From the NCBI GenBank assembly GCA_013373625.1, contig JABXHM010000012.1:19234-83233 (forward strand): a DNA stretch of 64,000 nucleotides, written 5' to 3'. The DNA comes from Alteromonadaceae bacterium (lineage in GTDB: Bacteria; Pseudomonadota; Gammaproteobacteria; Enterobacterales; Alteromonadaceae). Shown here in pieces: positions 4,293-19,180 of this stretch; position 1 is the stretch's first letter, and every line of letters begins with the position of its first letter. Both the position numbers and the translations under genes were made by a program. A model generated the notes under the pieces. That model made no database searches. It was given only the letters and a program-made list of their open reading frames with translations, and was not told the DNA's origin.

Positions 4293-4970
4293 CTAGGACT
4301 TTTTGCAGCGAAACCGGCGTATAAGCGCGAATGACATTACTGCAAATACAGCCATTAAAGGAGGCTCTGGCACCTCAACATTCACATCGGCAATATCGAA
4401 TTCAAACAGGCGTGCTTCAAGTGAACCAAACGAGTAGCCTGCGCCAAAACCCGAGGCCTGAATAACGCCTTGCGAAGTATTTAAAGTGGGTGACGTCCAG
4501 GCGAAACCGGGTGATGAAAATGCACTTTGCACATCAGTAAGCAAGGCATCATAGGTACCATCTTCCACATCAGCATACACTGTACTACCGTTTGACAAGT
4601 AAGCAGTGTCTGTGTATCCGGTCAAAAATGAAGCAATATTACTGCTCATACGCACTGATACCGACGGATCTGTCATATTAACACCGTTAATTAATCCGCT
4701 GATATTCTCGGCATCCGTACCACCACCCATGGCCAGTATATAGAACTTATTATCTCCGGTTGCCACGTTAAACGAGAGGGAAGACAATTCGTCGATTTGT
4801 TCTGTCCAGGTGACATCGTTTTGATATAACAAGTGATGGATATTAGAATCTGTACCGGTAAATACCGCAAAATCATTATCCGCTACAATTTCAATAGTGA
4901 AAGGTGCGGCGATTGCAGTACTTGTGAGCACCGAGGCACTCAAGATTAACGATCTTAATAGCTGCTTCAT
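4293..4970 (-). CDS. PEP-CTERM sorting domain protein
   Basis: A secreted 225-residue protein. The N-terminal signal peptide ends near IAAPFTIE. A cysteine-free, Ser/Thr/Asp-rich body follows. The C-terminus has the tripartite PEP-CTERM signal: VPEP at 200-203, a hydrophobic helix (PLMAVFAVMSFAL) and a basic tail (IRRFRCKKS). Exosortase family enzymes cleave this signal and route the protein to the surface or exopolysaccharide matrix. No exosortase gene is visible here. The ligand or function of the body is unknown. A sigma-54-type promoter lies 50 bases upstream, a common feature of PEP-CTERM genes. Confidence 0.8.
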   Translation of the reverse strand: MKQLLRSLILSASVLTSTAIAAPFTIEIVADNDFAVFTGTDSNIHHLLYQNDVTWTEQIDELSSLSFNVATGDNKFYILAMGGGTDAENISGLINGVNMTDPSVSVRMSSNIASFLTGYTDTAYLSNGSTVYADVEDGTYDALLTDVQSAFSSPGFAWTSPTLNTSQGVIQASGFGAGYSFGSLEARLFEFDIADVNVEVPEPPLMAVFAVMSFALIRRFRCKKS

Positions 4971-5494
4971 TATTAACCCTACTACTCATAAATGGTGTCA
5001 GTGGAACTGATTGTATATAAGCAGATTTCAGGCCAATAATTTTACACTTCAATTACAAATTTAACCTGTTGTTTTTCATTGTTTTTTATTTTGACCTGTG
5101 AAAGTTTGAATTTGATGCGTAAAAATATCTGACAGTCAACGGGGGCCAATCATGACAGCGTTTTCAGTCTTATCCTCGTTAAGTTGTTGATTTATATTTT
5201 TTGATTATTCGTGAGTGTGATGGGTTAAGTTTATTGATCAATTTTGCGACGAATTCTGCGCCGGGGTTATGTGCTTAGGCACTACCCATCTACAATTCTT
5301 AAAGAGCTATATATAAACAGAGACTGTTAGGTTTTTGTTATGGGTGTTTCGGTAGGACACTATCTGGCTTTATCCATGGTGGGGCGGTCATCATCGTTCA
5401 ACGGTATGTTGGCTGTAATATTATTTTGTGCTGAGCGGTCATTTAGGTAACATACTGTCAATGATAACCCCAAAACTATGCAGATTAATAAAAA
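4971..5494. other. AT-rich intergenic region between PEP-CTERM gene and 5495 gene
   Basis: A 524-base gap between divergent genes. Apart from the sigma-54-like site at 5020-5035 I see no gene, terminator or strong repeat. The stretch at about 5040-5230 is very T-rich on the plus strand. Confidence 0.5.
5020..5035 (-). promoter_or_regulatory. Candidate sigma-54 (-24/-12) promoter of the PEP-CTERM gene
   Basis: On the minus strand TGGCCTGAAATCTGCT has the invariant GG and GC elements separated by ten bases, as required for RpoN holoenzyme. The predicted transcript starts near 5009, giving a 39-base leader before the ATG at 4970. No activator site was identified. Confidence 0.6.
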
Positions 5495-6064
5495 GTGAAT
5501 AACAACGCAGCAGTCGTGCTATTACAAATGGATCCACAAGAAATAAAACACGCAAAAGTGATTTCGGGTGTGTCTCCCACGGTATTGAGAAGAGTGTTCG
5601 GTTTTTGGGTGATATTCGTTGCAGCTATATGTGGATTAGTAAGTGTAGCACCCAACCTTTCGCCGTCTTTTGTGATGATGACCTGTGTTATATTGTTAGT
5701 GTTTACCTTTCTTATTTTCTATCAGAGTCGCATCGCTGAGGGCTGGCCCTCGATTATCTACTACCAAAACCGCATAGGTGTTGTTCAGGAACCCGTAAAG
5801 CGTCAATTTTTAATGGTCAATAAACACTTTGTTGAGGGTGCATCACCGCATGTGCTTAAACCTAACAAAAATGCTGTTGCAATTGCGCTTGATGACTCCA
5901 CTCTAACCGAGCATGACAAGACGTTGTTACAACAAGCCATATGGCCTGACGACAAGCGATTGATAGCACTGAGTTATTTTAAAAAGCGTGAAGATATTTG
6001 TGTAGCGATCCGTCAAATTATTGAGACCAAGCGAACAGGTGGCCAGGTAAATTCTGCTGGGTAA
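5495..6064 (+). CDS. Two-helix membrane protein of unknown function
   Basis: A 189-residue protein that I do not recognise. Two adjacent hydrophobic helices (about residues 34-52, FGFWVIFVAAICGLVSVAP, and 58-76, FVMMTCVILLVFTFLIFYQ) are followed by a soluble C-terminal domain of about 110 residues, probably cytoplasmic. Translation starts at a GTG with no good ribosome binding site; ATG at 5528 (MDPQEIKHAK) is an alternative. The architecture suggests a membrane-anchored domain with a short hairpin, but no catalytic motif is evident. It is a single gene between the PEP-CTERM and BON genes. Confidence 0.6.
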   Translation: MNNNAAVVLLQMDPQEIKHAKVISGVSPTVLRRVFGFWVIFVAAICGLVSVAPNLSPSFVMMTCVILLVFTFLIFYQSRIAEGWPSIIYYQNRIGVVQEPVKRQFLMVNKHFVEGASPHVLKPNKNAVAIALDDSTLTEHDKTLLQQAIWPDDKRLIALSYFKKREDICVAIRQIIETKRTGGQVNSAG

Positions 6065-6144
6065 AATCTTCAATTTATATGGAAAACACTACACCTTAGA
6101 ATTTAACCCCTTAAAAAATTAATTTAAAAACAATGTGTTAGATT

Positions 6145-6160
6145 TGGCCTGAAAGTCGCA
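6145..6160 (+). promoter_or_regulatory. Candidate sigma-54 (-24/-12) promoter of the BON gene
   Basis: TGGCCTGAAAGTCGCA keeps GG, ten bases, GC. It shares its first ten bases with the promoter-like site of the PEP-CTERM gene. The predicted start is near 6171, a 24-base leader that contains the CGGAGA ribosome binding site of the ATG at 6195. Confidence 0.6.
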
Positions 6161-6194
6161 TAAGTATCTTTGAATTCTCAATCGGAGATACATT

Positions 6195-6764
6195 ATGAAA
6201 CGTTCAATACTTTCTCTAGTCGTTGTTGGTGCTCTTACTGCGTCAGCGTCTGGTCCGGTTCTGGCGGACTCAAAATGGGAAGAGACAGCCAAGGATGCCT
6301 GGATTGATGGCAAGGCCGAATCGACTCTGTTGTTCAATACCCATCTGAATTCCTTTGATATCAATACCGATGTCCAGGATGGCGTCATTATTCTCACTGG
6401 TAAAGTCGACAATACGATAGACAAGAAGCTTGCTGAAGAGCTGGTTGTTGGCATCGATGGTGTCGAGAGAGTGGATAATCAACTCACAGTTGTTAGCAGT
6501 TCCGATGATGACGAGCCAATGATTGATGAGGAAACCTCTGCAAAATTAACCGATGCGAAAATCGCTACCGTGGTGAAGTCTCGTTATTTAATGGATTCAG
6601 ACATTTCGGGGCTGGATATTGATGTTGATGTGAATAACAGCAACGTCGTGCTGAAAGGTACTGTTGAGAGCGAATCTGAGCGGGCATTGGCCGTGGAGAT
6701 TGCCAAAAACACTGCTGAAGTGGAATCAGTTGACGATCAGTTAACCGTCACTGATACCGAATAA
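6195..6764 (+). CDS. Periplasmic BON-domain protein (OsmY-like)
   Basis: A 189-residue secreted protein with a signal peptide cleaved near VLADSKW and two BON domains: about residues 35-100 (ending GIDGVERVDNQLTVV) and 115-187 (ending AEVESVDDQLTVT). An acidic linker (SSSDDDEPMIDEE) joins them. BON domains bind phospholipid surfaces, and OsmY/DolP-type proteins act in envelope stress and outer-membrane integrity. CGGAGA precedes the ATG. A perfect terminator follows at once, so the gene is monocistronic. The upstream sigma-54-like site suggests regulated expression. Confidence 0.88.
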   Translation: MKRSILSLVVVGALTASASGPVLADSKWEETAKDAWIDGKAESTLLFNTHLNSFDINTDVQDGVIILTGKVDNTIDKKLAEELVVGIDGVERVDNQLTVVSSSDDDEPMIDEETSAKLTDAKIATVVKSRYLMDSDISGLDIDVDVNNSNVVLKGTVESESERALAVEIAKNTAEVESVDDQLTVTDTE

Positions 6765-6771
6765 GCTTGAG

Positions 6772-6807
6772 GACTGCGACTTCTTACCAGAAGTCGCAGT
6801 CGTTTTT
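6772..6807 (+). terminator. Rho-independent terminator after the BON gene
   Basis: GACTGCGACTTCT, four-base loop, AGAAGTCGCAGTC is a perfect 13-bp stem followed by GTTTTT. It lies 8 bases after the BON stop codon. Confidence 0.93.
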
Positions 6808-6832
6808 CTAAACTACTTCAATGGTGATACCA

Positions 6833-7195
6833 ATGCAAAAATATACTAAATGGATATTAGGCACCTTATTGGTATGCAGCGGTGTGTTGGCTACCAGTCA
6901 TACTGAATCGGTGACTCGCTGGACGGGCAACGATTCAACGACAAAAGTGCATCAAACAGCTAACCCCGTTATTAGCGCTGTCATCACGGACCTTGAAAAC
7001 GAAGTGAAATCGACACACTTTGATTCCAAACGAACCATACACAGATTGCGTTTCAAGCGTATAGTGTATTACCTCAGCGAAGCGCGCAGCTTTGATGAAA
7101 AAAACTGGGAATATAATCGGGACGAAGCCTTAACCCGTGCCTCGAATATTCTACGCCACCATCAAGTAAAAACCGGACAAGGTTATGAATTATAA
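6833..7195 (+). CDS. Small secreted protein of unknown function, first gene of the mlaA/RND run
   Basis: A 120-residue protein with an N-terminal signal sequence (MQKYTKWILGTLLVCSGVLA) and a basic, helix-prone mature part rich in Arg, His and Glu (RTIHRLRFKRIVYYLSEARS). I do not recognise the family. I prefer ATG 6833, which has GGTGAT ahead of it, over ATG 6821. Its last 11 bases overlap mlaA, so it is probably co-translated with the lipid-trafficking genes downstream and may be a periplasmic partner of them. Confidence 0.6.
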   Translation: MQKYTKWILGTLLVCSGVLATSHTESVTRWTGNDSTTKVHQTANPVISAVITDLENEVKSTHFDSKRTIHRLRFKRIVYYLSEARSFDEKNWEYNRDEALTRASNILRHHQVKTGQGYEL

Positions 7196-8078
7196 GTCGA
7201 CGTTAATTGCATTCTGGCTAGTTGTGCTGGCGGGATGTTCATCGGTACCGCCTCCCGAGCAGACTTCAACAGCGAATACGGCGGCAACGCAGAAACAACA
7301 AAAAAGCCAACAACGAGTTTCTGAACAAACCGAGCAGCTCAGCCAGGGACAAAAGGTCAGTATTGCAACCTCGCAGGGCGAGATCAGTGTTGAACCCGCT
7401 GTTGTGGCTGTTGCTAATGCCGAACAATCTTCCGGTCAAGTACCTTCTACACCCGATTATTACGACCCATGGGAAGGTTTTAACCGCTCCATGTTTAGCT
7501 TTAACCATGCAGCGTATGAATACGTACTAATTCCTGTAACAGACGGTTACAAAGCCGTTCTGCCTCAGCCGGTCCGCTCTTCCGTTGGCAATTTCTTTGC
7601 GAATCTTCGTGAGCCACTCAATTTATTAAATAATCTGTTTTCCGGTGATGTCGATGATGCCGGCAGTAACTTAGGGCGCTTTTTGATCAATAGCACTGTG
7701 GGTGTTCTGGGGCTATTCGATCCAGCGACCAGTTGGTTTGATATCGAGAAAAAGCGTCGTTCTATAGCCGATACACTGACCCATTACGGGGTTGGGTCCG
7801 GCCCATTCTTAGTATTACCTATACTCGGCCAAAGCGATGTTCGTGGTGGCTTTTCAGTGCTGACTGAAGGACTGATTCATCCGGTTAATCAAATAGCCGA
7901 TTCGCCACAGAATTTGCAGCTTCGTGCTGTTGATGGGGTGGATGATTTTTCTAAACAATCAGAAACCTATCAGACATTGTATAACGAAGCGCAGGATCCT
8001 TATCTGTATTTTAGGAACCAGTATTTACAAGGGCAGGCCAGGGACACGTTGTATGAAAAACGAAACACTAAGGAATAA
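7185..8078 (+). CDS. mlaA: Outer-membrane lipoprotein MlaA (VacJ)
   Basis: A 297-residue lipoprotein with lipobox LAGC (Cys18), a Gln/Thr/Ser-rich linker of about 60 residues and the MlaA/VacJ domain beginning YDPWEGFNRSMFSFNHA. Family blocks FFANLREPLNLLNNL and LGRFLINSTVGVLGLFDPA are present. MlaA removes misplaced phospholipid from the outer leaflet of the outer membrane. In E. coli it works with MlaC and MlaFEDB. Here it overlaps the small secreted gene (11 bases) and the RND transporter gene (26 bases), and no other mla gene is present in the window. Confidence 0.93.
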   Translation: MNYKSTLIAFWLVVLAGCSSVPPPEQTSTANTAATQKQQKSQQRVSEQTEQLSQGQKVSIATSQGEISVEPAVVAVANAEQSSGQVPSTPDYYDPWEGFNRSMFSFNHAAYEYVLIPVTDGYKAVLPQPVRSSVGNFFANLREPLNLLNNLFSGDVDDAGSNLGRFLINSTVGVLGLFDPATSWFDIEKKRRSIADTLTHYGVGSGPFLVLPILGQSDVRGGFSVLTEGLIHPVNQIADSPQNLQLRAVDGVDDFSKQSETYQTLYNEAQDPYLYFRNQYLQGQARDTLYEKRNTKE

Positions 8079-10515
8079 CTTAGCAAACGCCATTGTCAAA
8101 GGGCGTTGGGCGATAATTGTAAGTTTTATGCTGTTGGTGGCAGTGGCGGCTGCAGGTATTCCAAAATTTAAAATTGCGGCGTCCGCAGACACTTTGTTAG
8201 TAAAAGACAATGAGCTGTATATTCAAACCCAGATTGCGCAGCAAACGTTTAGCCCCGATGAATTTATTTTACTGGCGTACGAACCTGTCGACCACGAGGT
8301 GTTCAGCGAGCAGACGTTTTCCGATCTGGCAATGTTGTCAGATGAGCTCAGCCAGATACAACGCGTTGAGAGCACGACGTCAATCCTCAATGTACCGCTT
8401 ATCGATAATGCTGATGCGTTAACCGGCCAAACAGATGTCAGCGCGCTAACATGGCAAAATCAACACTATGCGCCTGAAACCATGCGTAAGTTAGTGAGCG
8501 GTCATCCTATTTTTACGGATTTACTGATTAACCGTGATAACACCGCGACATCTATTCAGATTGTCTTTAAGTCCAATCAGGAGCTGGTTGAAATTGAGCG
8601 ACAAATCACCAACATCAAAGCAAACCTGCTAGAGAGGTCGTTAACCGACGAAGAACAAGCACAGATTGCCCAACTGCAATCAAGGGCTGAGCCATTGCGT
8701 GCGGAACTCACCCGTCAACGTAAACAGGAAATTGAGCAAATCAATGCCATCACTAAGCAAGTCAATGATCGTGCGAATACCTACTTGGGTGGTTCTTATG
8801 TCGTTGGCCAGCATCTTATTGATATTATCCGCGCCGATTTGGTGACGTTTGGTCTGGCTATTGCGGTCGTTATTGCGCTGTTATTAGCGGTGCTATTCAG
8901 GCGGGTTAAATGGGTGGTATTTCCATTGTTAAGCTGTGGCCTCAGTGTGACGCTGACTATCGGTGCGCTAGGGTGGTTTGACCTGCGAGCTACAGTAATA
9001 TCGGCTAATTTTGTGGCGCTGCAAATTATTTTAACGCTGGCAGTGATGATTCATATGCTGGGCAGTTATCGGTATATCGCACGTGAACAGCCTGAGCTCA
9101 ACCAGCATGAGCGCGTGAAACGCATGTTGGAAGATAAACTGGCGCCATGCTTCTTTGCTTCATTGACCACCAGTGTGGGCTTTGCAGCTTTGCTCTTTAG
9201 CGGGCTTGAACCTGTTATATCCTTTGGTGTGATGATGTTAATTGCCATGGTGATCTCACAGCTGGTTAGTCTGCTTTTATTTCCCGCACTACTTGCGTTG
9301 TTATCATCAGGAAGCGAGGCCAAAGACTATGGTTTTATTAAACGTACGCTGGCCGCGTGTCGCTCGTTATCACTGAATAAACCCGGCTTAACAAGCATTA
9401 GCGCCATTTTGATCTTTGTTGCGCTCGGTGCTGGTATTTCACGGCTGAACGTTGAAAACTCCTTTATTAATTACTTTGCAAAGGACACCCGGGTTTATCA
9501 GGAACTGGCCTATATCGATAAAGAGTTTGGTGGTACTACGGCGCTGGATATTATTATTGACGTGCCGCAAAAGCCCGATGACCCGTCGTTACTGATCGGG
9601 GCAGACAGTGTTAATCAGCTGACGTTGGTGCAAAGCGCGGTCACTGCATTTGAGGCGACCGGCAGCGTCACTTCTTTGGTGAACTTTACTGAGCTGGCAA
9701 AGCAACTGAATGGCAACAGACCGTTAACCGAATACGAACTGTCCAGTATTTATTATCTTTTGAATGAGAAAGTGGTGAATCAGTTGGTGGGGGCGTACTT
9801 TTCTGAAGAAGATCAACGCTTGCGAATGGCTATCAGAATTCAGGATACCACCGAAGGGTTAAACCGCGAGCAGTTTATGGCGCAGCTTAAAGACGATTTA
9901 GCGACGGTTGGGGTTGAACAAGACAACTATCAGCTCACCAGTCTGTTTGTACTGTATCAGGATATACTCAGCCGTTTATTTGACTCGCAAATTACTACCC
10001 TGGGTATTGTTTATGTAGCGTTGGGGTTAGTCTTTTTACTGATCTTCCGATCTATAAAAGTGGCGCTTATTGCACTGCTGCCAAACATCCTGACAACCCT
10101 CGCTATTTTAGGCGTGATAGGATGGGCCGGCATTCCACTTGATATTATGACCATTACTATAGCTGCCATCGCAATGGGGATAGCAGTAGATGATACGCTG
10201 CATTTTGTTCACAGTTATCTTGCATCGCTGCGTGATAAAACTAATACAGCATCTACAAGCCGGGCAGCGCAAGCGGCGGAATCTGCTTTTAAACACAGTG
10301 GACTGGCCATTTTGTTAACCACTACCGTCATAGCTGTGGGCTTTTCATTGTTTGGCTTTTCTGACTTCCTGCCAAGTGTCTATTTTGGCTTGCTAACAGC
10401 GCTGGCTATGGTAATGGCACTGGTCACAGACTTAACATTGCTGCCAGCGCTACTGAATAAGTGGGTTGCAGCTGATTACGCCAATAGTAGTGAGGAGGCG
10501 GCTCATGCACAGTAA
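8053..10515 (+). CDS. RND/MMPL-family transporter
   Basis: An 820-residue inner-membrane protein with the duplicated RND layout. Each half has one helix, a large periplasmic domain (about residues 45-250 and 450-650) and a block of five helices. The second-half motif IAMGIAVDDTLHFVHSY matches the TM4 region of MMPL/HpnN-like exporters. The first periplasmic domain holds a Gln/Glu-rich coiled stretch (ERSLTDEEQAQIAQLQSRAE). The ATG at 8053 lies inside mlaA. Relatives export lipids or hydrophobic molecules. Pairing with MlaA suggests phospholipid transfer between membranes, which is inference. Confidence 0.85.
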   Translation: MKNETLRNNLANAIVKGRWAIIVSFMLLVAVAAAGIPKFKIAASADTLLVKDNELYIQTQIAQQTFSPDEFILLAYEPVDHEVFSEQTFSDLAMLSDELSQIQRVESTTSILNVPLIDNADALTGQTDVSALTWQNQHYAPETMRKLVSGHPIFTDLLINRDNTATSIQIVFKSNQELVEIERQITNIKANLLERSLTDEEQAQIAQLQSRAEPLRAELTRQRKQEIEQINAITKQVNDRANTYLGGSYVVGQHLIDIIRADLVTFGLAIAVVIALLLAVLFRRVKWVVFPLLSCGLSVTLTIGALGWFDLRATVISANFVALQIILTLAVMIHMLGSYRYIAREQPELNQHERVKRMLEDKLAPCFFASLTTSVGFAALLFSGLEPVISFGVMMLIAMVISQLVSLLLFPALLALLSSGSEAKDYGFIKRTLAACRSLSLNKPGLTSISAILIFVALGAGISRLNVENSFINYFAKDTRVYQELAYIDKEFGGTTALDIIIDVPQKPDDPSLLIGADSVNQLTLVQSAVTAFEATGSVTSLVNFTELAKQLNGNRPLTEYELSSIYYLLNEKVVNQLVGAYFSEEDQRLRMAIRIQDTTEGLNREQFMAQLKDDLATVGVEQDNYQLTSLFVLYQDILSRLFDSQITTLGIVYVALGLVFLLIFRSIKVALIALLPNILTTLAILGVIGWAGIPLDIMTITIAAIAMGIAVDDTLHFVHSYLASLRDKTNTASTSRAAQAAESAFKHSGLAILLTTTVIAVGFSLFGFSDFLPSVYFGLLTALAMVMALVTDLTLLPALLNKWVAADYANSSEEAAHAQ

Positions 10516-10966
10516 GTTTGGTTCGTTGAAGGATTTATCGGCCCGATTTTTTGCCGGTTTGTTTCTGTGCGTATCGGCCACCATGGTAGCTATGTCTGGT
10601 ATTCACTTTTATACCGGTTTTAGCGCAGACATCGATTTTGTCTCAGCGGTGATCAAAGCGGTTAACGATCTGTTTATCGCGCTGGCAACCTATGAACTTG
10701 CAATGGGTATATTTAAAGAATATCGCCACAGTGAAGAAGGGGATTTATTTTTGTCGATCCGTCGCACTGTGACCAGGTTTGTCAGTGTCGTGGTGATTGC
10801 ACTGGTGCTTGAAGGGTTAGTTATGATTATAAAATACAGTCAGCTTGACCTTGCAGGTAACTTATTTTACCCGGTGGCAGTGGTCGTTGCTGCCAGTGTA
10901 TTACTTATGTCATTAGGCGTTTTTCTGCACCTTACCCGCGACAAAAATGCGTTGCCGAGCGGGTAA
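10505..10966 (+). CDS. Four-helix membrane protein of unknown function
   Basis: A 153-residue integral membrane protein. Hydrophobic segments lie near residues 13-35, 42-65, 85-108 and 115-140. A conserved-looking cytoplasmic stretch is ELAMGIFKEYRHSEEGD. The start at 10505 is preceded by GAGGAGG and overlaps the RND gene by 11 bases, so it is the last gene of the run 6833-10966. I do not recognise a named family. Its position suggests an accessory subunit of the transporter. Confidence 0.65.
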   Translation: MHSKFGSLKDLSARFFAGLFLCVSATMVAMSGIHFYTGFSADIDFVSAVIKAVNDLFIALATYELAMGIFKEYRHSEEGDLFLSIRRTVTRFVSVVVIALVLEGLVMIIKYSQLDLAGNLFYPVAVVVAASVLLMSLGVFLHLTRDKNALPSG

Positions 10967-10977
10967 TCCTGTGGACG

Positions 10978-11004
10978 CTGCGCGGTGCAGCACACGCCGC
11001 GCAG
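10978..11004. repeat. Inverted repeat downstream of the mlaA/RND run
   Basis: CTGCGCGG, eleven bases, CCGCGCAG forms a GC-rich 8-bp stem 11 bases after the stop of the last gene. No T-run follows. It could stabilise the 3' end of the mRNA. Confidence 0.4.
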
Positions 11005-11078
11005 CTCGCTAGCCTAAAATCCTGAGCCCTGGTAATATTATCCAGTGACCTGGTCGATGTTACCGGTAATACACAATA

Positions 11079-11100
11079 AAAAGGCCGCATAGCCTTTTAA
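11079..11100 (+). terminator. Probable terminator of the mlaA/RND run
   Basis: AAAAGGC, six-base loop, GCCTTTT: a short A/T-flanked stem typical of bidirectional terminators. It has only three GC pairs, so moderate strength is expected. Confidence 0.5.
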
Positions 11101-11216
11101 TGTGCTTTGTAGCCATCACTTGTTGACCGTTGGTGTACAACAAAGATTAACCGGCCCTGGTGTTTATTTATGCCGGCTCGCGTACAATAATGCCATCATT
11201 TCTGGTGGTGTTCACA

Positions 11217-12401
11217 ATGTTCAAATCTGGTTTAGTTACTTTATTAACACTGTTTATCAGTGCTTCGTATGTGCTTTCTTCACACGCAGACTCAATTCGG
11301 GTAGCGACCTTCAATGTCAGTATGGAAGCCAGTAATTATTCACAAAGTGATACTGATGGCGTCGATGCTAACATACTGCTGGCGCATTTAAGGTCGGCTG
11401 AGCATCCGCAAATTCGTAATATTGCCGAAATTATTCAGCGTGTGGCGCCGGATATTATATTACTCAATGAGTTTGATTATTCTCCGGTCGCAAATCCCAG
11501 CGCAACAGCACTGTTTGTATCCAATTACCTGAATATCAGCCAGCAAGGCCAGGCCCCAATAGATTACCCATACCAGTATATTGCACCGGTGAATACCGGC
11601 GTGCCTACGCCTTATGATTTAGATAATAACGGCGAAAAAACCGGCCATGGCGGTGACGCCTATGGTTGGGGATTGTATCCTGGCCAGTATGGTATGGCGC
11701 TGTTATCCCGTTATCCCATTGATGTTGAGGGGATCCGTACCTTTCAACGGTTCTTGTGGCAGCATTTGCCCGAAGCTCAGGTACCGGTTGATCCGGTGTC
11801 AGGCGACCCCTGGTATAACGAGGAAGAGTGGGCGGCGCTGCGCTTAAGTTCTAAATCTCACTGGGATATACCAGTTAATGTCAATGGCAATATTGTACAT
11901 ATTTTAGCAATGCACCCTACGCCGCCAACCTTTGATGGCCCGGAGGACAGAAACGGCAAACGAAACCATGATGAAATTCGCTTGATGGCCGATTATTTAT
12001 TGCCGTCAACAGCCGGTTATATCTACGATGATGCAGGGCGAAAAGGGAGTTTTTCGGGGCGCAGATTTGTACTGGCTGGCGATTTTAATGCGGCAGATAT
12101 TGGCGATAAATACCGCCCAAACGTGATTGAGCAACTCACAGAACATCCACTGGTAAATAATAGCGTGATACCGGTAAGTGATGGCGGAAATGCATCGGAT
12201 ATGGCGCAATACAGCCGACGTTTCACCGCCTCTTGGGGCGCACGTGCCGATTATGTATTACCCTCACGAGCCGGCTTCGACGTTACCGCAGCCGGTGTGT
12301 TCTGGCCGGACAAAGATTCACCACTTTATCGTTTGGTAAAAGATCGTCTAAGTAGCTCCGATCACCGATTAGTGTGGATAGATTTGAGGTTAACAGAATA
12401 A
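11217..12401 (+). CDS. Secreted endonuclease/exonuclease/phosphatase-fold protein
   Basis: About 394 residues with a signal peptide (MFKSGLVTLLTLFISASYVL, cleaved near HADS). The DNase I-like fold is marked by RVATFNVSM, IILLNEFDYS (metal-binding Glu), RFVLAGDFNAADIGDK (Asp and Asn) and the C-terminal SSDHRLVWIDL (catalytic Asp-His). The substrate could be DNA, a phospholipid or a phosphoester; the sequence does not decide. I chose ATG 11217 because the signal peptide begins there. In-frame GTG 11160 and ATG 11190 are also possible. Confidence 0.85.
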   Translation: MFKSGLVTLLTLFISASYVLSSHADSIRVATFNVSMEASNYSQSDTDGVDANILLAHLRSAEHPQIRNIAEIIQRVAPDIILLNEFDYSPVANPSATALFVSNYLNISQQGQAPIDYPYQYIAPVNTGVPTPYDLDNNGEKTGHGGDAYGWGLYPGQYGMALLSRYPIDVEGIRTFQRFLWQHLPEAQVPVDPVSGDPWYNEEEWAALRLSSKSHWDIPVNVNGNIVHILAMHPTPPTFDGPEDRNGKRNHDEIRLMADYLLPSTAGYIYDDAGRKGSFSGRRFVLAGDFNAADIGDKYRPNVIEQLTEHPLVNNSVIPVSDGGNASDMAQYSRRFTASWGARADYVLPSRAGFDVTAAGVFWPDKDSPLYRLVKDRLSSSDHRLVWIDLRLTE

Positions 12402-12474
12402 CCCGGTATGTTTCACCGGCTTGTTGTAGTGACTTTTCCGGCTCAATGCCAGGGCGTGTTGATGGGTTTAATGT

Positions 12475-12507
12475 AAAAAAAGGGCAATATCGCTGCCGAT
12501 ATTGCCC
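12475..12507 (-). terminator. Terminator of the DUF1328/acidic lipoprotein operon
   Basis: On the minus strand GGGCAATATCG, four bases, CGATATTGCCC is a perfect 11-bp stem followed by seven T. It lies 29 bases beyond the stop of the acidic lipoprotein gene and could also stop plus-strand transcripts from the 11217 gene. Confidence 0.9.
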
Positions 12508-12535
12508 TTATCTGTTTAAGCGGACTGATCGTTAA

Positions 12536-12736
12536 TTAACAATCGTCGTCTTCAGCTTCTACGCCTTCTTTAACATCTTCACAAGCATCTTCCACTGCGT
12601 TACCAGCGTCAGTAACTGCTTCGTCGATAGCTTCGCCAGCGTCTTCTGCTTCACCGTCACCACAAGCGATAACTGAACACGCAAAGGCGGCGATAACGGT
12701 CATTTTTAACATGTCTAAAAACTTTAAATTTTTCAT
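12536..12736 (-). CDS. Small acidic lipoprotein
   Basis: A 66-residue protein with a signal sequence ending in the lipobox-like VIAC (Cys25) and a very acidic mature part (EAEDAGEAIDEAVTDAGNAV and onward to EAEDDDC). The alternating Ala and acid pattern suggests a single amphipathic helix. Three cysteines, one of them terminal, are notable. It follows the DUF1328 gene by 29 bases and shares its terminator. Small envelope proteins of this kind (compare entericidin-like lipoproteins) are usually stress induced. Function is unknown. Confidence 0.7.
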   Translation of the reverse strand: MKNLKFLDMLKMTVIAAFACSVIACGDGEAEDAGEAIDEAVTDAGNAVEDACEDVKEGVEAEDDDC

Positions 12737-12765
12737 AATTATTCCTTAATTATTAATGTTTAATA

Positions 12766-12942
12766 CTATGCCTTGGGGGTTTTTCCGCGTAAGGCCCCAG
12801 CAATAAGCGATATAACGAGTAGCACAACAAATAGAAAGAACAGAAACTGCGCGATACCTGTTGCTGCACCAGCGATGCCACCAAAACCGAAAACTGCTGC
12901 TATAATTGCGATAATAAAAAATGTGATTGCCCAACCTAACAT
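12766..12942 (-). CDS. DUF1328 small membrane protein (YtjA-like)
   Basis: A 58-residue protein, [20 protein letters not shown] and onward to ALRGKTPKA, with two hydrophobic helices separated by a Gly/Ala turn ([12 protein letters not shown]). This is the DUF1328/YtjA pattern, small inner-membrane proteins commonly found with stress genes. AAGGAGACATC precedes the ATG. It is the first gene of an operon with the acidic lipoprotein, and a sigma-54-like promoter lies 42 bases upstream. Confidence 0.88.
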
Positions 12943-12983
12943 GATGTCTCCTTGTTTATTTCATCGTATGTCACTTTATATTA

Positions 12984-12999
12984 TGCTAGTCTTGTGCCA
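12984..12999 (-). promoter_or_regulatory. Candidate sigma-54 promoter of the DUF1328 operon
   Basis: Minus-strand TGGCACAAGACTAGCA has a full consensus -24 half (TGGCAC) and GC at the correct ten-base spacing. The predicted start is near 12973, with a 31-base leader containing the AAGGAG site. Confidence 0.65.
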
Positions 13000-13193
13000 T
13001 TGCGTATGTTGTTGAATTTAAACGAAAATAATTAATTCCAATAAGTTTTGGACTTCTTGTGTGCTACATCGTTACAGTCTTTTTGCATTTTTTACACGGC
13101 AGTTCAGGCAGCCTTACTTTCGCATTTGCTGACATTCGCGCTAATTAGGTTTAGGATCGCGCCATTACACGTTTATTTTTATCCGGAGTACCA

Positions 13194-13841
13194 ATGGCAA
13201 ATACTCACTCAGCATTTATCGGGCTGATGCAACGTGCCCGCAATGTTAAACGCTGGCCGTTGATGGCCCAGTTTCAGTCTGAAATGTTATCTACCCACAT
13301 TTACGAAGCCTCGGTCATTGCCCATATGCTCGGGGTAATCGCTAAAGAAGTGTATAACGAAGATATTGTTCCTGACCGCGTGGCGTCGATGGCGATTTTT
13401 CATGAGGGCAGCGAAATAGCAGGTATGAGTGATATTCCCAGCCCGGTCAAATATCACGATCCGGAAACTACCCAGGCGATCAAAAAGTTAGAGCGTCGGT
13501 TTGAACAAATGTTAATCAAAACCTTACCGGAAGCTCTGCAGGAAAGCTATGAGCCGTTGATTGTCCAAGATAAAAATGATGATCACGTACGATTAGCTAA
13601 AGCTGCAGATGTACTTTGTGCTTATCTGAAATGCGACTATGAGCTCGCTAAGTCAAACCATGAATTTTCAAATGCAATGGAAGAGATGGAAGTTCAACTG
13701 GCGCGATATCGTGAACTGCACCCTTGTGTCGATTATTTTTGTAAGGTCTTCTTAGAAGACGCCAAAGGGACCCTGGATGAACAGACCAAGGATCTGGATT
13801 GGGTCGAGAACGCCAACCAGGCCAATCTCAAATCTTCCTGA
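13194..13841 (+). CDS. yfbR: YfbR-like 5'-deoxynucleotidase with HD changed to HE
   Basis: A 215-residue HD-domain protein aligned with E. coli YfbR, a metal-dependent dNMP phosphohydrolase. KRWPLM matches the family start and DIPSPVKY matches the active-site loop. Metal ligands H35, H70 and D139 and catalytic E74 are present at a constant +2 offset from E. coli H33, H68, D137 and E72. The HD aspartate (E. coli D69) is Glu71 here (IFHEGSE), and the loop after it reads MSD instead of TGD. Activity may be altered. It is a monocistronic gene. Confidence 0.82.
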   Translation: MANTHSAFIGLMQRARNVKRWPLMAQFQSEMLSTHIYEASVIAHMLGVIAKEVYNEDIVPDRVASMAIFHEGSEIAGMSDIPSPVKYHDPETTQAIKKLERRFEQMLIKTLPEALQESYEPLIVQDKNDDHVRLAKAADVLCAYLKCDYELAKSNHEFSNAMEEMEVQLARYRELHPCVDYFCKVFLEDAKGTLDEQTKDLDWVENANQANLKSS

Positions 13842-13992
13842 GTAGAACGCCTTATTTTGCCTGGTTTCATTGAATGCGGTTGCACTCAGTGGTAGTGGCC
13901 CGGTTAACGGGTGCACAGTAATCGGTTGTATTTTATATTGTTGCGCCGTAGCAGGGGGAAGCCAGTACAATATCCTTTTGGACGCTCGTGCC

Positions 13993-14403
13993 TTATCCCT
14001 TAATCAGGGCATTTAGCTTTTCAAGGCACTGCTGATGACGATTCGTAATTTGACGCAGTTTTAGTGATAGACCAGAGGGCTTCAGTGATGACAAACTGTC
14101 GTTCAGGCACGTTAGCAATTGTTCTTCCAGTTCAATGAAACCGTCGATTTTATCCAGTGATGGATAGCTGGTTAACATCGCCTGCAAACGCTCGCTGACC
14201 GCTTCAGATAATGTGTCGTCGTCTGCTTCATCATTGTCAGGAGTAAGAAGCTCCAGGGCACGTTTTTTTTCATCTTTCAGTAGTTTGAAACAAGCCAGTT
14301 GTTGGCTTGACAGGTTGTTCGATGTCGCTGAACTGTATAAATCTGCGCCTTTGCTAAATAACGCCTGTAAATGGTCTACTGCATTGATCTTATCGTGCAT
14401 CAT
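13993..14403 (-). CDS. Helical protein of unknown function
   Basis: A 136-residue protein that is entirely helix-prone, without signal peptide or membrane segment. It contains LQALFSKGADLYSSATSNNL, LKDEKKRALELLTPD and QITNRHQQCLEKLNALIKG. It resembles small four-helix-bundle stress proteins (DUF2383/PA2169-like) in size and pattern, but I cannot assign a family. I chose ATG 14403, in a tandem ATG ATG; a longer frame reaches 14454. It lies 43 bases after the CC0125-type lipoprotein gene, so it is probably in the same sigma-54-like operon. Confidence 0.6.
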   Translation of the reverse strand: MMHDKINAVDHLQALFSKGADLYSSATSNNLSSQQLACFKLLKDEKKRALELLTPDNDEADDDTLSEAVSERLQAMLTSYPSLDKIDGFIELEEQLLTCLNDSLSSLKPSGLSLKLRQITNRHQQCLEKLNALIKG

Positions 14404-14446
14404 AACTACTCTATAAATTAGGTGAATGAGACGAAAGGCTGTTTTG

Positions 14447-15076
14447 CTAATCAACCATTATCGCTTGTTTTGGTCTTGGCTCATGGCTCCCGAGCTGAAT
14501 GGTCATAGTGTAATATTTCGCCGGACCGCTATTCATTGTTGATACGGCACCAACAGGTTTTGGTGTTGTAACACGTTCACATCCTGATACAGTGCACTGT
14601 TGGTTCTTTGGCAGCTCAGTGGTTTTGATATCGCCAGTTGCCGCGCCATCCACAGTCTCTGCCTGCGGTGCAGCTGTCATAACCTGTTGCTCTTCCATGT
14701 CAGGTAGATTAACCATGTCTGCCGATATCACCCTGTACCATGAAAAGCCTTTGGTGCGGCCGATTTCAGCGGCGCGCTGATGAGCGTAGGCCGATAGTTG
14801 TTCTGTACTGGTCGCGGCATTTGCCTTGTACATGATTTTATATTTTGATTCAGACAGTCGGTGTGAGGAATAACCCTCTGCGCCTGCACTTGGTGCCGCT
14901 TGATAGGGCGTCGATACTAATGAGCTACCTGCACACCCGGTCAACATACAGGTAGTGAATGCCGCTACAAGTAACGCTTTTGCCAGATTCGTATTACTGA
15001 ATAATTTAACCAATAAACTTAACTCTACGCTGGCTATCGCGTTAAATGCTGTTATCTGTTTGACAATTCTGTGCAT
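14447..15076 (-). CDS. CC0125/CC1285-type lipoprotein
   Basis: About 209 residues with lipobox LTGC followed by AGSSLVSTPYQAAPSAGAEG, then YSSHRLSESKYKIMYKANAA and AYAHQRAAEIGRTKGFSWYR. The layout (STPYQPA, GY, RYxVxF/Y, RAAE, G-W-R) is that of the CC0125/CC1285 lipoprotein family of unknown role. ATG 15076 has AGGGA at good spacing, but this gives a signal of almost 50 residues. TTG 15013 would give a normal 27-residue lipoprotein signal (VKLFSNTNLAKALLV) and may be the real start. Confidence 0.7.
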   Translation of the reverse strand: MHRIVKQITAFNAIASVELSLLVKLFSNTNLAKALLVAAFTTCMLTGCAGSSLVSTPYQAAPSAGAEGYSSHRLSESKYKIMYKANAATSTEQLSAYAHQRAAEIGRTKGFSWYRVISADMVNLPDMEEQQVMTAAPQAETVDGAATGDIKTTELPKNQQCTVSGCERVTTPKPVGAVSTMNSGPAKYYTMTIQLGSHEPRPKQAIMVD

Positions 15077-15136
15077 AATCATTTCCCTGTTAAGGTCAAC
15101 TTGTGTTGGTATCTGTTAATAATCTAAACAGATATG

Positions 15137-15152
15137 TGCAACGCTTATGCCA
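15137..15152 (-). promoter_or_regulatory. Candidate sigma-54 promoter of the CC0125-type lipoprotein operon
   Basis: Minus-strand TGGCATAAGCGTTGCA matches the consensus closely: TGGCA at -24, TTGCA at -12, GG and GC ten bases apart. The predicted start is near 15126. Confidence 0.7.
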
Positions 15153-15260
15153 TCGTTTGTGATTAATTTAACGTATTGAAATAAAAGAAAAAATAATAAT
15201 TAGATACATAACTTAAACGTCAGAAGCCGGCGGCTATGTAAAACTTGCACAGCCGCGCTA

Positions 15261-17216
15261 TCAAAAGTTCAAAGTAGCCAAATCGTTTTTGGTAACAGGT
15301 TTGAGCAGGGTTTGCCTGACCGGGAGATCAGCGAGACGGTGTTGTTCCGGCTTTGCACCACTGATAATCGTAAATGTGAGTTGCGGCGCTATCTGCTGTA
15401 GTTCAGCAACGAGCTCGTACCCATTGGTATCTGGCAGGTGTAAGTCCATCAATACATGACAATACATGTCTGGATTAGCCGTGACCTTTTGCAATGCCTG
15501 ATGACCACTGTGGGCAGTATCTGCCTGATGATTAAGGCTCTTAAGTAATACGCACATTAACTCGGCAGCATCTTCGTCGTCTTCAACCACCAACAGGTGC
15601 TCATTGCTCGTATTGTCAGGCTCAATATCCACTACCGGTAGCGTCTCTTTCGCCGGTATTAAAAAGGTATCCAGTACCTGGCTCAATTCGCGTCGGTCAA
15701 CTGGCTTGGCGATGACGTTATCAAATCCATCGCTAAGAAGCGATTCACGCAGCCCTTTACGACTCGCGGCGGTAACGGCAACTACCGGCGTTTGAATGCC
15801 TTCTTCACGTATGGCCCGCAGACAGTCAATGCCATTCATAGCTGGCATATGAATATCCATCAAAATTAAATGAAATGGTCGCTTCTTTTGCTCTGCAATG
15901 CGTACTTTTTCCAGTGCATCGAGTCCGTTCTGGGCATACGACACAGTAGCCTGACTCATGCCAACTAATCTGCCGGTAAGGCGACGTATCTCCCTTAGAT
16001 CATCAACAATTAATACTCTGCCATCGAGTTGCTGATTGATTTTAAACTGCTTGGCACGACGCACTGGTGCTTCTAAATCCAGTGGTACGGTGCTGACCTG
16101 TCCTGAATTGCCGGTATCGACAGTAAACCAAAACCGACTGCCTTCACCTTGTTTAGACTCAACACTGATATTGCCGCCCATACGTTGAACAAGTTCATTG
16201 GAAATTGCCAACCCCAGGCCAGCTCCACCATGATTTGCCTGCATTAAATCTTCGATTTGCTCAAACGGTCTGAAAATCGTTTGCAGCTTATCTTGCGGCA
16301 TGCCAATACCGGTATCTTTCACAGCAAAGCAAAGTTGCTGACTGGACTCGTTAAACTCAATATGAATATTCACCTCACCAGAATCAGTAAACTTTATCGC
16401 ATTGTTAGTGAGGTTAATGAGTATTTGTCGTAGTCGGGTAGGGTCGCTTTTAATAAACTCTGGCAATAAAGAGTCTGAGGTGATGGTCAATAGTAACCCT
16501 TTCTCGCTGGCTTGCATGACCATTAAACTGTAGAGGTCAGTTAAAAATCCGGTCAAATTGAATTCAGTACGCACCAGATCAAGTTTATTGGCCATAATCC
16601 GGGACATATCGAGCAGATCGTTCAATAAACACAATAAATGCTGGCTGTTATTTAAGATCGTTGATAGCTCTGAGTTAATATGTTCGTTTTCTGGCGAATC
16701 GAGCAATAATTCAGTGTAACCAAGAATCGACGAGAGTGGCGTACGTAATTCATGGCCAAGGTGGGCTAAAAACTTATCTTTCGCCCGGTTTTGTTGCTCC
16801 ACCCGGTTACGTTCAAGGCGTTCTGTTTCTATTTCGCGGCGCACTAAAGCATAGCGAAGAGTACGCATAAAACGAGGCGTGTCGACTTCTGACTTGGTCA
16901 GAAAATCAGCCGCTCCGGCGCGCATCACCCGATCATCGACAACACTGTCGGCTTGTCCGGTTAATACCACTACGGGAATATTAACCGACAAGCTTTTTAG
17001 TTTTGCCAATACATCCATGGCGTTTTCCTGGCCAAGCAAGTAGTCAAGTAAACATAAATCGAAGGATTCTGCTTTTAATAACTCAATAGCTTCGGCACCG
17101 TTTTTGGCCCAGTGCAGTTCAAACCGAGGTGAGGTACATTGTTCAAGAGAGTCGGCGGTAAGAAAATAATCATCTTCATCATCTTCAACGAGTAATATAC
17201 GTACAGTGTCGGTCAT
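15261..17216 (-). CDS. Hybrid histidine kinase: REC-HisKA-HATPase-REC-REC
   Basis: A 651-residue cytoplasmic protein with no membrane segment. Order: receiver 1 (about 5-125, Asp58), DHp (145-210, His155 in AHLGHELRTP), HATPase (255-370: NLTNNAIKFT, DTGIGMP, GGAGLGLAI), receiver 2 (400-518, Asp454 in LILMDIHMP) and receiver 3 (540-651, Asp591 in HVLMDLHLP). With input arriving as a receiver, it probably takes phosphate or protein contact from another kinase. I chose ATG 17216, after GAGAGGG; a longer frame reaches 17249. It is the last gene of the five-gene cluster. Confidence 0.88.
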   Translation of the reverse strand: MTDTVRILLVEDDEDDYFLTADSLEQCTSPRFELHWAKNGAEAIELLKAESFDLCLLDYLLGQENAMDVLAKLKSLSVNIPVVVLTGQADSVVDDRVMRAGAADFLTKSEVDTPRFMRTLRYALVRREIETERLERNRVEQQNRAKDKFLAHLGHELRTPLSSILGYTELLLDSPENEHINSELSTILNNSQHLLCLLNDLLDMSRIMANKLDLVRTEFNLTGFLTDLYSLMVMQASEKGLLLTITSDSLLPEFIKSDPTRLRQILINLTNNAIKFTDSGEVNIHIEFNESSQQLCFAVKDTGIGMPQDKLQTIFRPFEQIEDLMQANHGGAGLGLAISNELVQRMGGNISVESKQGEGSRFWFTVDTGNSGQVSTVPLDLEAPVRRAKQFKINQQLDGRVLIVDDLREIRRLTGRLVGMSQATVSYAQNGLDALEKVRIAEQKKRPFHLILMDIHMPAMNGIDCLRAIREEGIQTPVVAVTAASRKGLRESLLSDGFDNVIAKPVDRRELSQVLDTFLIPAKETLPVVDIEPDNTSNEHLLVVEDDEDAAELMCVLLKSLNHQADTAHSGHQALQKVTANPDMYCHVLMDLHLPDTNGYELVAELQQIAPQLTFTIISGAKPEQHRLADLPVRQTLLKPVTKNDLATLNF

Positions 17217-17226
17217 AACCCTCTCG

Positions 17227-17679
17227 CTAGGTGTTATTGGGAAGTTCAACGAATTCTACCCAGTAACGGCCGAGAGCCTGCATTAGATCAACCAGTCCCT
17301 CAAAATTAACGGGTTTGGTAATGTAGGAAGCGGCGCCCATATCATAGCCGCGTAACATGTCTTCTTCTTCTTTCGATGTGGTCAGAATCACCACCGGGAT
17401 GCTGCGTAACGTCGGGTCAGCTTTAATTTGCTGCAATGCCTCGCGACCGTCCATGCGCGGCATATTGAGATCAAGTAAAATCAGACTTGGCCGCGGCGAT
17501 AACGCGGCATCAGAAAATTTACCTTCCCGACGCAGGTATTCAAGCAGCTCAACACCGTCTTCGACGCAATGTAAGTTATTCAGAACACGGCCTTCTTTTA
17601 AGGCATCTACTGCCAGCAAACGATCGTCTTCGTCATCATCTGCCATTAATATGGTAATTGGCAATCTACTATTAGGCAT
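17227..17679 (-). CDS. Single-domain response regulator (Rcp1-like)
   Basis: A 150-residue stand-alone receiver. The acidic pocket ADDDEDD (residues 13-19), phosphoacceptor Asp70 in LILLDLNMPRMDG, the Thr in VVILTTSKEEED and Lys in ITKPV are all intact. The extra residues around 50-63 are typical of Rcp1-type regulators that pair with phytochrome-like kinases. It overlaps the CHASE3 kinase gene by 8 bases and ends 10 bases before the hybrid kinase start. It has no output domain, so it is a phosphate carrier or acts by protein contact. Confidence 0.9.
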   Translation of the reverse strand: MPNSRLPITILMADDDEDDRLLAVDALKEGRVLNNLHCVEDGVELLEYLRREGKFSDAALSPRPSLILLDLNMPRMDGREALQQIKADPTLRSIPVVILTTSKEEEDMLRGYDMGAASYITKPVNFEGLVDLMQALGRYWVEFVELPNNT

Positions 17680-19180
17680 GGCTAATTACTCCCTGTTGTT
17701 GCAAATTGGTAAACGGCTGTCCATCCTCTGGTAGGTATATTTCAAACCTGGCGCCTTGTTGAGGCTCCGAGAAGGCTTGTATCGTGCCATTGTGGCGTTC
17801 GACAATGCGGCGACATACTGCAAGTCCAATACCTGTGCCCTGATACTCTGAACGACCATGTAAACGCTGGAATGGCGCAAAAATTTTCTCCGCAAAGTTT
17901 TGTTCAAAACCAATACCATTATCCTGCAGTGTTATTTTGAACCATTTTAAACCAGGAAGTAAATGTAAAGATTCAACATTTTCTGAATATAAACTTTCAT
18001 AACGAAGACTGATGTGTGGGGTGGTATCGGATTTAATGAACTTAAGTGCATTGGATAACAAGTTTAAAAACAACTGATTCATTTGGCTGGTGTCAGCTTG
18101 AATGGTGGGTAAATCATCAACGTCAATAACCGCTGAGGTTTCTTCGATCTTAATTTCAAGATCATCTAATACCGACTCCATAACGTTATTGAGGTCGGTG
18201 CTGACAAAGTCTTTTCCCCGCGTTGTAACTCTGGAAAATTCAAGTAAGTCACTAATTAGCATTGACATTCTTTCTGCAGCATTGAGCATACGGCGTAGAA
18301 AGTCTTTACCACGTTCATCCATAACCGATTCGTAGCCAGTACTGACACGGTTACCAAAAGCACGTATCTTGCGTAACGGTTCTTGCAAGTCATGGGAGGC
18401 AACAAACGCAAAGTCTTCAAGTTCGCGGTTGCTGCGCGAGAGTTCCTCAGCGTAAACCTGAAGTTCTGCTGTACGCTCCTCTACTTTCGATTCAAGTACC
18501 ATATTGTGTTGCTGTAGCTCTCGCTGGTGGCTTATGGTTTCGCGAATATTTATGCGTAGTAAAAAGAAGATACCGAGAATCAACAGAGCAGTGGTAACGG
18601 CTGAAATGACTAGGTTAGTAATGGCGTCGGCCCGTAACTTCATAAGAGAATTAACGTGTTGGCTTTGTAGCTGTCGCTCTTGTTGTTCGATTTTAACGAA
18701 CAGTGTCTCAAACTCATCATACTGTACCAGGCCGCGGTCAGTTGAAAACAGCGTTAATGCCTGTTCACGCTGGCCTTGCCTGGCCAGTTCGACCACTTCT
18801 ATCAGCGATGTTAATTTCACCTTTGAAAGATCAACAAGTTGCTGAAGACGTTGTTCTTGCTCAGAAAAGTCTGAGGAGATGGCGTTTTGCTCAACTTTTT
18901 CAATTAACCGGTTGACGCTATCCAGCGTGGTTTCATAATCAGTGAGGTACTCTTCTTTCTGCGTTAATAGATAACCTCGTTGGCCCGATTCGGCGCGCAA
19001 TATCGCTACATGAAGTGTATTGATTGAATTGATGACTTTGTTGGTAGTAAAAAGTCGTCTTTCTAAAGACGCTAATTCGTCGAGCGTATGAATCGTATAG
19101 GCTGAGTTGGCAGCGATTACAATTACAACCAGCGAAATTAGCAGTATCCAGGAAGCTGTATTGCGCAGAAAGTGGCTCAT
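17672..19180 (-). CDS. CHASE3-domain sensor histidine kinase
   Basis: A 502-residue membrane kinase: helix at about 12-30, periplasmic CHASE3 domain at 35-170 (LRAESGQRGYLLTQKEEYLT is a typical block), second helix at about 188-210, coiled linker, DHp with His263 (FVASHDLQEPLRKI) and HATPase (NLLSNALKFI, DNGIGFE, GTGIGLAVCRRIV). The DHp is of the type found in phytochrome-like kinases, which usually partner Rcp1-like receivers such as the next gene. Its start overlaps the stop of the small DHp gene as ATGA. Confidence 0.9.
   Translation of the reverse strand: MSHFLRNTASWILLISLVVIVIAANSAYTIHTLDELASLERRLFTTNKVINSINTLHVAILRAESGQRGYLLTQKEEYLTDYETTLDSVNRLIEKVEQNAISSDFSEQEQRLQQLVDLSKVKLTSLIEVVELARQGQREQALTLFSTDRGLVQYDEFETLFVKIEQQERQLQSQHVNSLMKLRADAITNLVISAVTTALLILGIFFLLRINIRETISHQRELQQHNMVLESKVEERTAELQVYAEELSRSNRELEDFAFVASHDLQEPLRKIRAFGNRVSTGYESVMDERGKDFLRRMLNAAERMSMLISDLLEFSRVTTRGKDFVSTDLNNVMESVLDDLEIKIEETSAVIDVDDLPTIQADTSQMNQLFLNLLSNALKFIKSDTTPHISLRYESLYSENVESLHLLPGLKWFKITLQDNGIGFEQNFAEKIFAPFQRLHGRSEYQGTGIGLAVCRRIVERHNGTIQAFSEPQQGARFEIYLPEDGQPFTNLQQQGVISHA

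Follow-up and report, generated by a model that had tools for sequence, protein, structure and literature searches.

Three envelope-protein operons with sigma-54-type promoters and a common upstream element, predicted to be controlled by a neighboring NtrC-type activator in an Alteromonadaceae bacterium

We analyzed a 64-kb stretch of DNA (the window) from an Alteromonadaceae bacterium, a relative of Paraglaciecola, that encodes an NtrC-type sigma-54 activator together with three further signaling genes. Comparison of this sequence with related genomes suggests that three operons, encoding a BON protein, a DUF1328 protein with an acidic lipoprotein-like protein, and a CC0125 lipoprotein with a helical protein, are probably co-activated by this neighboring activator, because a promoter and an upstream element are common to the three operons and are conserved genus-wide. 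An initial annotation of the window had proposed an RpoN-controlled envelope regulon with its own phosphorelay; in our analysis the BON, DUF1328-lipoprotein, and CC0125 operons could be tied to the activator, and a PEP-CTERM gene named as a fourth member could not. The genes of the three operons are as follows.

6195..6764, forward strand: BON protein with two BON domains (domain search); OsmY-like, below the cut-off of the OsmY model
12766..12942, reverse strand: DUF1328 protein, 58 aa (PF07043, 54.7 bits; cut-off 27)
12536..12736, reverse strand: acidic lipoprotein-like protein, 66 aa (sequence; syntenic orthologues)
14447..15082, reverse strand: CC0125/CC1285 family lipoprotein (NF047637, 65.9 bits; cut-off 40)
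13993..14454, reverse strand: helical protein, occupying the position of a DUF2383 protein in relatives

Promoters and a shared upstream element

All four TGGC-N9-GC sites of the initial annotation were located in the sequence in the orientations it gave; their positions were right, and each interval was one base over the 15-base length of the pattern.

6145..6159, forward strand: sigma-54-type -24/-12 site of the BON gene, TGGCCTGAAAGTCGC, 35 bases to the start codon (6195)
12985..12999, reverse strand: sigma-54-type site of the DUF1328-acidic lipoprotein operon, TGGCACAAGACTAGC, 42 bases to the start codon (12942)
15138..15152, reverse strand: sigma-54-type site of the CC0125 operon, TGGCATAAGCGTTGC, 55 bases to the start codon (15082)
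5021..5035, reverse strand: sigma-54-type site of the PEP-CTERM gene, TGGCCTGAAATCTGC, 50 bases to the start codon (4970)

The number of sites had been taken to exceed chance on an expected frequency of once per 4096 positions per strand, an argument that does not hold: the actual frequency is about once per 2,000 per strand, and the window contains 63 matches against 50.2 ± 7.1 in shuffled sequence, with 5 of 100 shuffles reaching 63. Non-coding DNA of the window shows no excess, since 4 of the 63 matches are fully non-coding and about 5.5 were expected (crude calls of 58 open reading frames (ORFs), leaving 5,540 non-coding bases; the DUF1328 site is missing from this tally because a spurious ORF overlaps it). 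A consensus scan of the window allowing three mismatches was uninformative (596 matches, 623.7 expected). Three of the four sites rise above chance because they are conserved in related genomes.

Conservation was assessed in 24 genomes, our own (G000) and 23 same-genus relatives. The sigma-54 activator is carried by 21 of them; G005, G006, and G022, all lacking it, were excluded from the 21-genome counts. A promoter was scored as a GG-N10-GC site reaching at least 8 of 13 against the consensus. The initial annotation had pointed to orthologous upstream regions as the place where the motif should persist, and we found it there for BON (21/21), DUF1328 (21/21), and the third operon (21/21). In the last case, it precedes an ElaB-like gene in 19 of 19 genomes and CC0125 in G000 (the window) and G002, in neither of which an ElaB-like gene was found. 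The distance from the GG to the start codon is 48-52 bases for BON in 20 of 21 genomes (68 in one), 54-59 bases for DUF1328 in 19 of 21 (90 and 108 in the remaining two), and 51-60 bases for the ElaB-like gene in 19 of 19. In total, all 61 target upstreams (BON 21, DUF1328 21, ElaB-like 19) have a site, compared with 59 of 774 control ORF upstreams. In the 19 genomes with the ElaB-like gene, CC0125 sits within the operon, and its upstreams were therefore left uncounted.

Among individual control genes, no sites were found for YfbR (0/13), LysR2 (0/15), and LDH (0/2), one each for g23593 (1/15), g5495 (1/18), and EEP (1/2), and two each for the rhodanese-like (2/15), LysR (2/17), ArsR (2/17), and MMPL (2/10) genes. 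Upstreams of the regulator genes, also used as controls, gave 2/19 for the CHASE3 kinase, 2/19 for the hybrid kinase, and 2/20 for the activator; the highest control was PRC, with 6/16. Gene 6821 (9/11) and CC0125 (3/17) were kept out of the control set. These per-gene counts apply the same score within 300 bases upstream; the tally they belong to covered 18 genus genomes for BON and 17 for DUF1328.

A second conserved block, first visible in the alignment, lies upstream of the promoters. Searching both strands of the three families for motifs without guidance, we obtained the consensus TGTAAAAATTGC (GCAATTTTTACA on the other strand). In the 61 target upstreams, 65-105 bases separate the end of its best match from the GG. 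In cross-validation, matrices trained on two families scored the third at 9.31 (BON), 9.61 (DUF1328), and 8.77 bits (ElaB-like), against shuffle means of -0.10, 1.22, and 0.41 and maxima of 2.47, 3.72, and 2.25 among 200 shuffles, respectively. With a threshold of 7.5 bits for the three-family matrix, element and promoter occurred together in 59 of 61 target upstreams (BON 19/21, DUF1328 21/21, ElaB-like 19/19) and in 13 of 774 controls. The elements of the window, predicted to be binding sites of the activator, are listed without strand.

6044-6057 (12.5 bits) and 6058-6071 (13.6 bits): two tandem upstream elements of BON
13085..13098: upstream element of the DUF1328 promoter, 19.2 bits, found in 21/21 genus genomes
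15235..15248: upstream element of the CC0125 promoter, 16.1 bits

A matrix built from DUF1328 upstreams only was too narrow to cover most of the BON and ElaB-like upstreams and was discarded; with it, the DUF1328 upstream of G006 scored 11.0, compared with 14.1-26.0 in the 21 activator-bearing genomes.

If the patterns were chance matches and the operons used other promoters, their lack of enrichment in the non-coding DNA of the window alone would be understandable. This explanation is nevertheless very improbable, given that the position of the site is conserved in 61 of 61 target upstreams although the spacer bases vary, that the element survives cross-validation, and that both have been lost in G006, a genome without the activator that retains DUF1328 at 93% identity: no sigma-54 site was found upstream of this gene, and the three-family matrix scores no more than 3.2 there.

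The neighboring activator and its alternatives

The sigma-54 activator and kinases annotated at 15.3-20.8 kb were confirmed by their domains, the GAFTGA motif, and the acceptor residues.

19415..20758, reverse strand: NtrC-type sigma-54 activator with a receiver, an AAA+ domain bearing GAFTGA, and a Fis-type helix-turn-helix (domain search and residues)
17672..19180, reverse strand: CHASE3 histidine kinase (domain search; phospho-acceptor His present)
17227..17679, reverse strand: lone receiver protein (domain search; phospho-acceptor Asp present)
15261..17249, reverse strand: hybrid kinase with three receiver domains (domain search; acceptor residues present)

Phospho-acceptor His/Asp residues are thus present in all four regulators, and the four genes remain together in relatives; it is this gene order and these intact residues that suggest that the kinases feed the activator. 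RpoN is encoded in the genome. An orthologue of the activator (78-88% identity) was found in 20 of the 23 same-genus relatives, and a BON orthologue (E up to 1e-15) in the same 20; both are missing in G005, G006, and G022. DUF1328 is missing in two of these three, G006 being the one that keeps it. The G005 and G022 assemblies are fragmented (590 and 300 contigs), so that gene absence is weaker evidence there.

The sites might be real sigma-54 promoters that answer mainly to PrsR or to another paralogue instead of the neighbor. On its other strand, the element has the same TTTACA ending as PrsR motif 1 in the available part of PMC1569441, a comparison by ending only, and the genome encodes a separate true PrsR (707.7 bits against the TIGR02915 cut-off of 502.6; the neighboring activator scores 313.4). 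We consider this quite unlikely, because BON presence tracks the neighboring activator (20 relatives have both, 3 neither). Moreover, G006 has a true PrsR (718.6 bits) and DUF1328, yet neither site nor element, and G028 has no PrsR above the cut-off, yet its activator adjoins BON and DUF1328 genes with sites.

The gene proposed as fourth member is the following.

4293-4970, reverse strand: PEP-CTERM gene; sigma-54-type site upstream, regulon membership unsupported

This gene has a sigma-54-like site at a suitable distance and a weak element match, TGCGTAAAAATATC at 5116-5129, with plausible spacing. The score of that match, the best upstream of the gene, is 3.3, near the control median of 1.0 and far from the 13.6, 19.2, and 16.1 of BON, DUF1328, and CC0125. 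No footprint is possible, since no orthologue of the gene was found in the 23 other stretches compared. An exosortase is encoded elsewhere in the genome, and with the true PrsR the route described in the available part of PMC1569441 is open to this gene. True membership in the regulon is accordingly unlikely; judged from the weak element, the presence of exosortase and PrsR, and that published route, PrsR more likely controls the PEP-CTERM gene.

Outside the genus, the four-regulator cluster occurs in at least two named genera, Paraglaciecola and Gilvimarinus, among the matches listed. P. marina has the activator (67% identity), CHASE3 kinase, receiver, hybrid kinase, BON, and ElaB-like genes in one stretch, and BON and the ElaB-like gene each have a site and an element. 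In G. agarilyticus, the activator (56%) is found with the CHASE3 kinase, receiver, hybrid kinase, BON, DUF1328, a fragment match to the ElaB-like protein, and the acidic lipoprotein, which is preceded by the site TTGGCATGGTTCGCGCA and the element GTAAAAGTTGCA. Sites precede BON in P. marina, G. agarilyticus, G028, and G037, and DUF1328 in G028, G037, and G382, as well as in G228 and G336 by the class-wide pattern. Applied to the class, that pattern, a sigma-54 site immediately ahead of a DUF1328 start, matched 91 of 370 genomes, mostly at genes other than DUF1328; apart from the window, real DUF1328 genes follow the match in G228, G336, and G382 (50-67% identity), and that of G382 lies beside an activator. 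Because few class-wide matches precede real DUF1328 genes, the link between sigma-54 and DUF1328 is not general in the class. The lone receiver, used as a marker, was found in 10 of 370 genomes; among 11 stretches from the 8 lone-receiver genomes outside the genus, only G195 has all four regulators, together with a lipoprotein-like fragment. Distant sigma-54 activators, L101 (G036), L082 (G037), L081 (G028), and L308 (G382), also adjoin BON and/or DUF1328 genes, and the association may therefore be older than the four-gene cluster.

Several observations weigh against control of the three operons by the neighboring activator. The genome encodes further sigma-54 activators, PrsR among them. The matrix behind the 59 of 61 count was trained on those same target sequences, the element shuffles preserved base composition only, and the genomes compared are kin. 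On its own the element is unspecific: it has 28 matches of at least 7.5 bits in the 64 kb and occurs in 8.9% of control upstreams, and the BON upstreams of G004 and G021 fall below this threshold. The P. marina stretch has no DUF1328; in G. agarilyticus, the DUF1328 gene has an element of 15.3 bits with a site variant carrying GA for GC, and BON has a site with no element of at least 7.5 bits. Finally, G036 has no site before BON or DUF1328.

Operon content and candidate further targets

A terminator is likely directly after BON, where an inverted repeat (GACTGCGACTTC/GAAGTCGCAGTC) is followed by a T run (6771-6807); BON is therefore probably transcribed alone. Behind it (7185-10515), as in several relatives, lie genes for an MlaA-like lipoprotein and an MMPL/HAE3-type transporter, a possible lipid-transport pair. 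The acidic lipoprotein-like protein has no match in NCBIfam or Pfam, and the helical protein none in Pfam; proteins at the position of the latter in relatives match PF09537. In 19 relatives the third promoter heads the ElaB-like gene, not CC0125. The three such operons inspected consist of the ElaB-like gene and small membrane-protein genes (YqjE-like, YqjK-like) followed by CC0125, and in two of them by a DUF2383 gene. The names ElaB and YqjE come from sub-threshold Pfam scores (DUF883_C, 14.9 against 27; holin-like, 18.3 against 28.4) and, on our assumption, from position and sequence character; YqjK-like was named by position alone.

Some of the 13 control cases with both promoter and element may be further members of the regulon. 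Candidates among them are genes for DUF2383 proteins, a small secreted protein, and a lone receiver, and an ExoD-like gene that adjoins the activator. Orthologues of the last, which we take to be ExoD-like from its sequence character, have sigma-54-like sites in 11 of 13 cases and the element too in 2 of 13. The corresponding counts are 8 of 11 sites with the element in 6 for the small secreted protein (none for the window copy at 6821), 3 of 8 with the element in 2 for DUF2383 proteins, and 7 of 8 with the element in 2 for the receivers. The ExoD-like gene is a neighbor of the activator in 13 genomes of the genus (G003, G004, G011, and G021 among them) and was not seen there in the window.

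Scans of the 24 whole genus genomes with exact element-plus-promoter patterns, which degenerate sites escape, recovered cluster promoters in some genomes and otherwise isolated matches, with no further common intergenic target by eye; one match outside the cluster recurs in G013, G016, G017, and G022. Second BON genes, L056, L057, L058, and L059 (G004, G003, G021, and G012, respectively), have sigma-54-type sites with a different common word near TGTAAGAAACGACA, and this difference from the shared element suggests that they are under another activator. Second DUF1328 genes, L130, L131, and L132 (G020, G010, and G017), are all preceded at 53-54 bases by a sigma-54-like site, TAGGCCTRTGSTTTGCA, and the shared element was not found nearby.

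Proposed pathway and relation to known systems

In the proposed pathway, a signal would be sensed via the CHASE3 domain or the hybrid kinase and passed on through the CHASE3 kinase, the lone receiver, and the multi-receiver hybrid kinase to phosphorylate the activator. The phosphorylated activator would bind the upstream element, oligomerize, and contact RpoN polymerase, opening the three promoters. The products (OsmY-like BON, YtjA-type DUF1328, and the CC0125 and acidic lipoproteins) would then protect or remodel the envelope under stress, joined in relatives by the ElaB-like and other membrane proteins. The signal, the phosphotransfer and its order, and the protein functions are predicted; the parts fit the standard sigma-54 route of a kinase, a phosphorylated activator on an upstream element, and contact with RpoN polymerase.

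The nearest known system is PrsK/PrsR. As described in the available parts of PMC1569441 and PMC9850573, it has in common with the present one an NtrC-type receiver activator, a sigma-54 promoter, a histidine kinase, and envelope or surface products, besides the motif ending noted above. It differs in that the present activator falls below the PrsR cut-off in a genome encoding a separate PrsR, that two extra signaling genes are present here, and that the predicted targets here are not PEP-CTERM genes but BON, DUF1328, CC0125, and ElaB-like ones. The classical case of RpoN control over envelope stress is the phage-shock (Psp) response, whose activator PspF works with RpoN and has no receiver domain. 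Psp is named as an RpoN-controlled inner-membrane stress response in the accessible text of PMC10100675. Common to both systems is a sigma-54 activator switching on membrane-stress genes; the target genes are others, and here a receiver-type activator comes with kinases.

In enterobacteria, osmY and yqjD-yqjE-yqjK are RpoS genes. By gene content, the present operons share the OsmY-like, DUF1328, and ElaB-like types with the enterobacterial RpoS stress genes, and differ in their predicted sigma-54 promoters, though RpoS is encoded here as well (461.3 bits; cut-off 378.7). In the portions available, elaB is described as RpoS-regulated in E. coli (PMC6389858) and ytjA, a DUF1328 gene, as tightly RpoS-controlled in Salmonella (PMC5437024). 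Sigma-54 has been presented as a controller of the bacterial exterior and envelope functions (PMC3162934), a general theme common to our system; the part of that text available names neither Alteromonas nor osmY, and no such regulon or activator. We found no description of such a regulon among the papers listed from the open-licence literature, and the available portions of papers joining DUF1328 with RpoN, or osmY with RpoN and envelope stress in E. coli, describe no such control. New relative to the initial annotation are the shared element, the ElaB-like and other membrane-protein genes that in 19 relatives stand at the head of the third operon, the joint occurrence of the activator and BON, and the cluster in two other named genera, among the matches listed.

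Taken together, DUF1328, CC0125 lipoproteins, DUF2383-like, and ElaB-like proteins, all poorly understood families, are linked to one predicted regulator, promoter type, and element, and such a single regulator would make the stimulus of these families directly testable by identifying what the CHASE3 or hybrid kinase senses. More tentatively, at a confidence somewhat short of even, we propose that the sigma-54 phosphorelay of this genus, Paraglaciecola, and Gilvimarinus captured the enterobacterial RpoS gene set (OsmY, YtjA, and ElaB/YqjD types). It would thereby provide a signal-gated response to envelope stress that is separate from RpoS and to which individual lineages have added genes, for example the ExoD-like one beside the activator. 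If true, stress genes that belong to RpoS in enterobacteria would be wired to sigma-54 in bacteria that retain RpoS.

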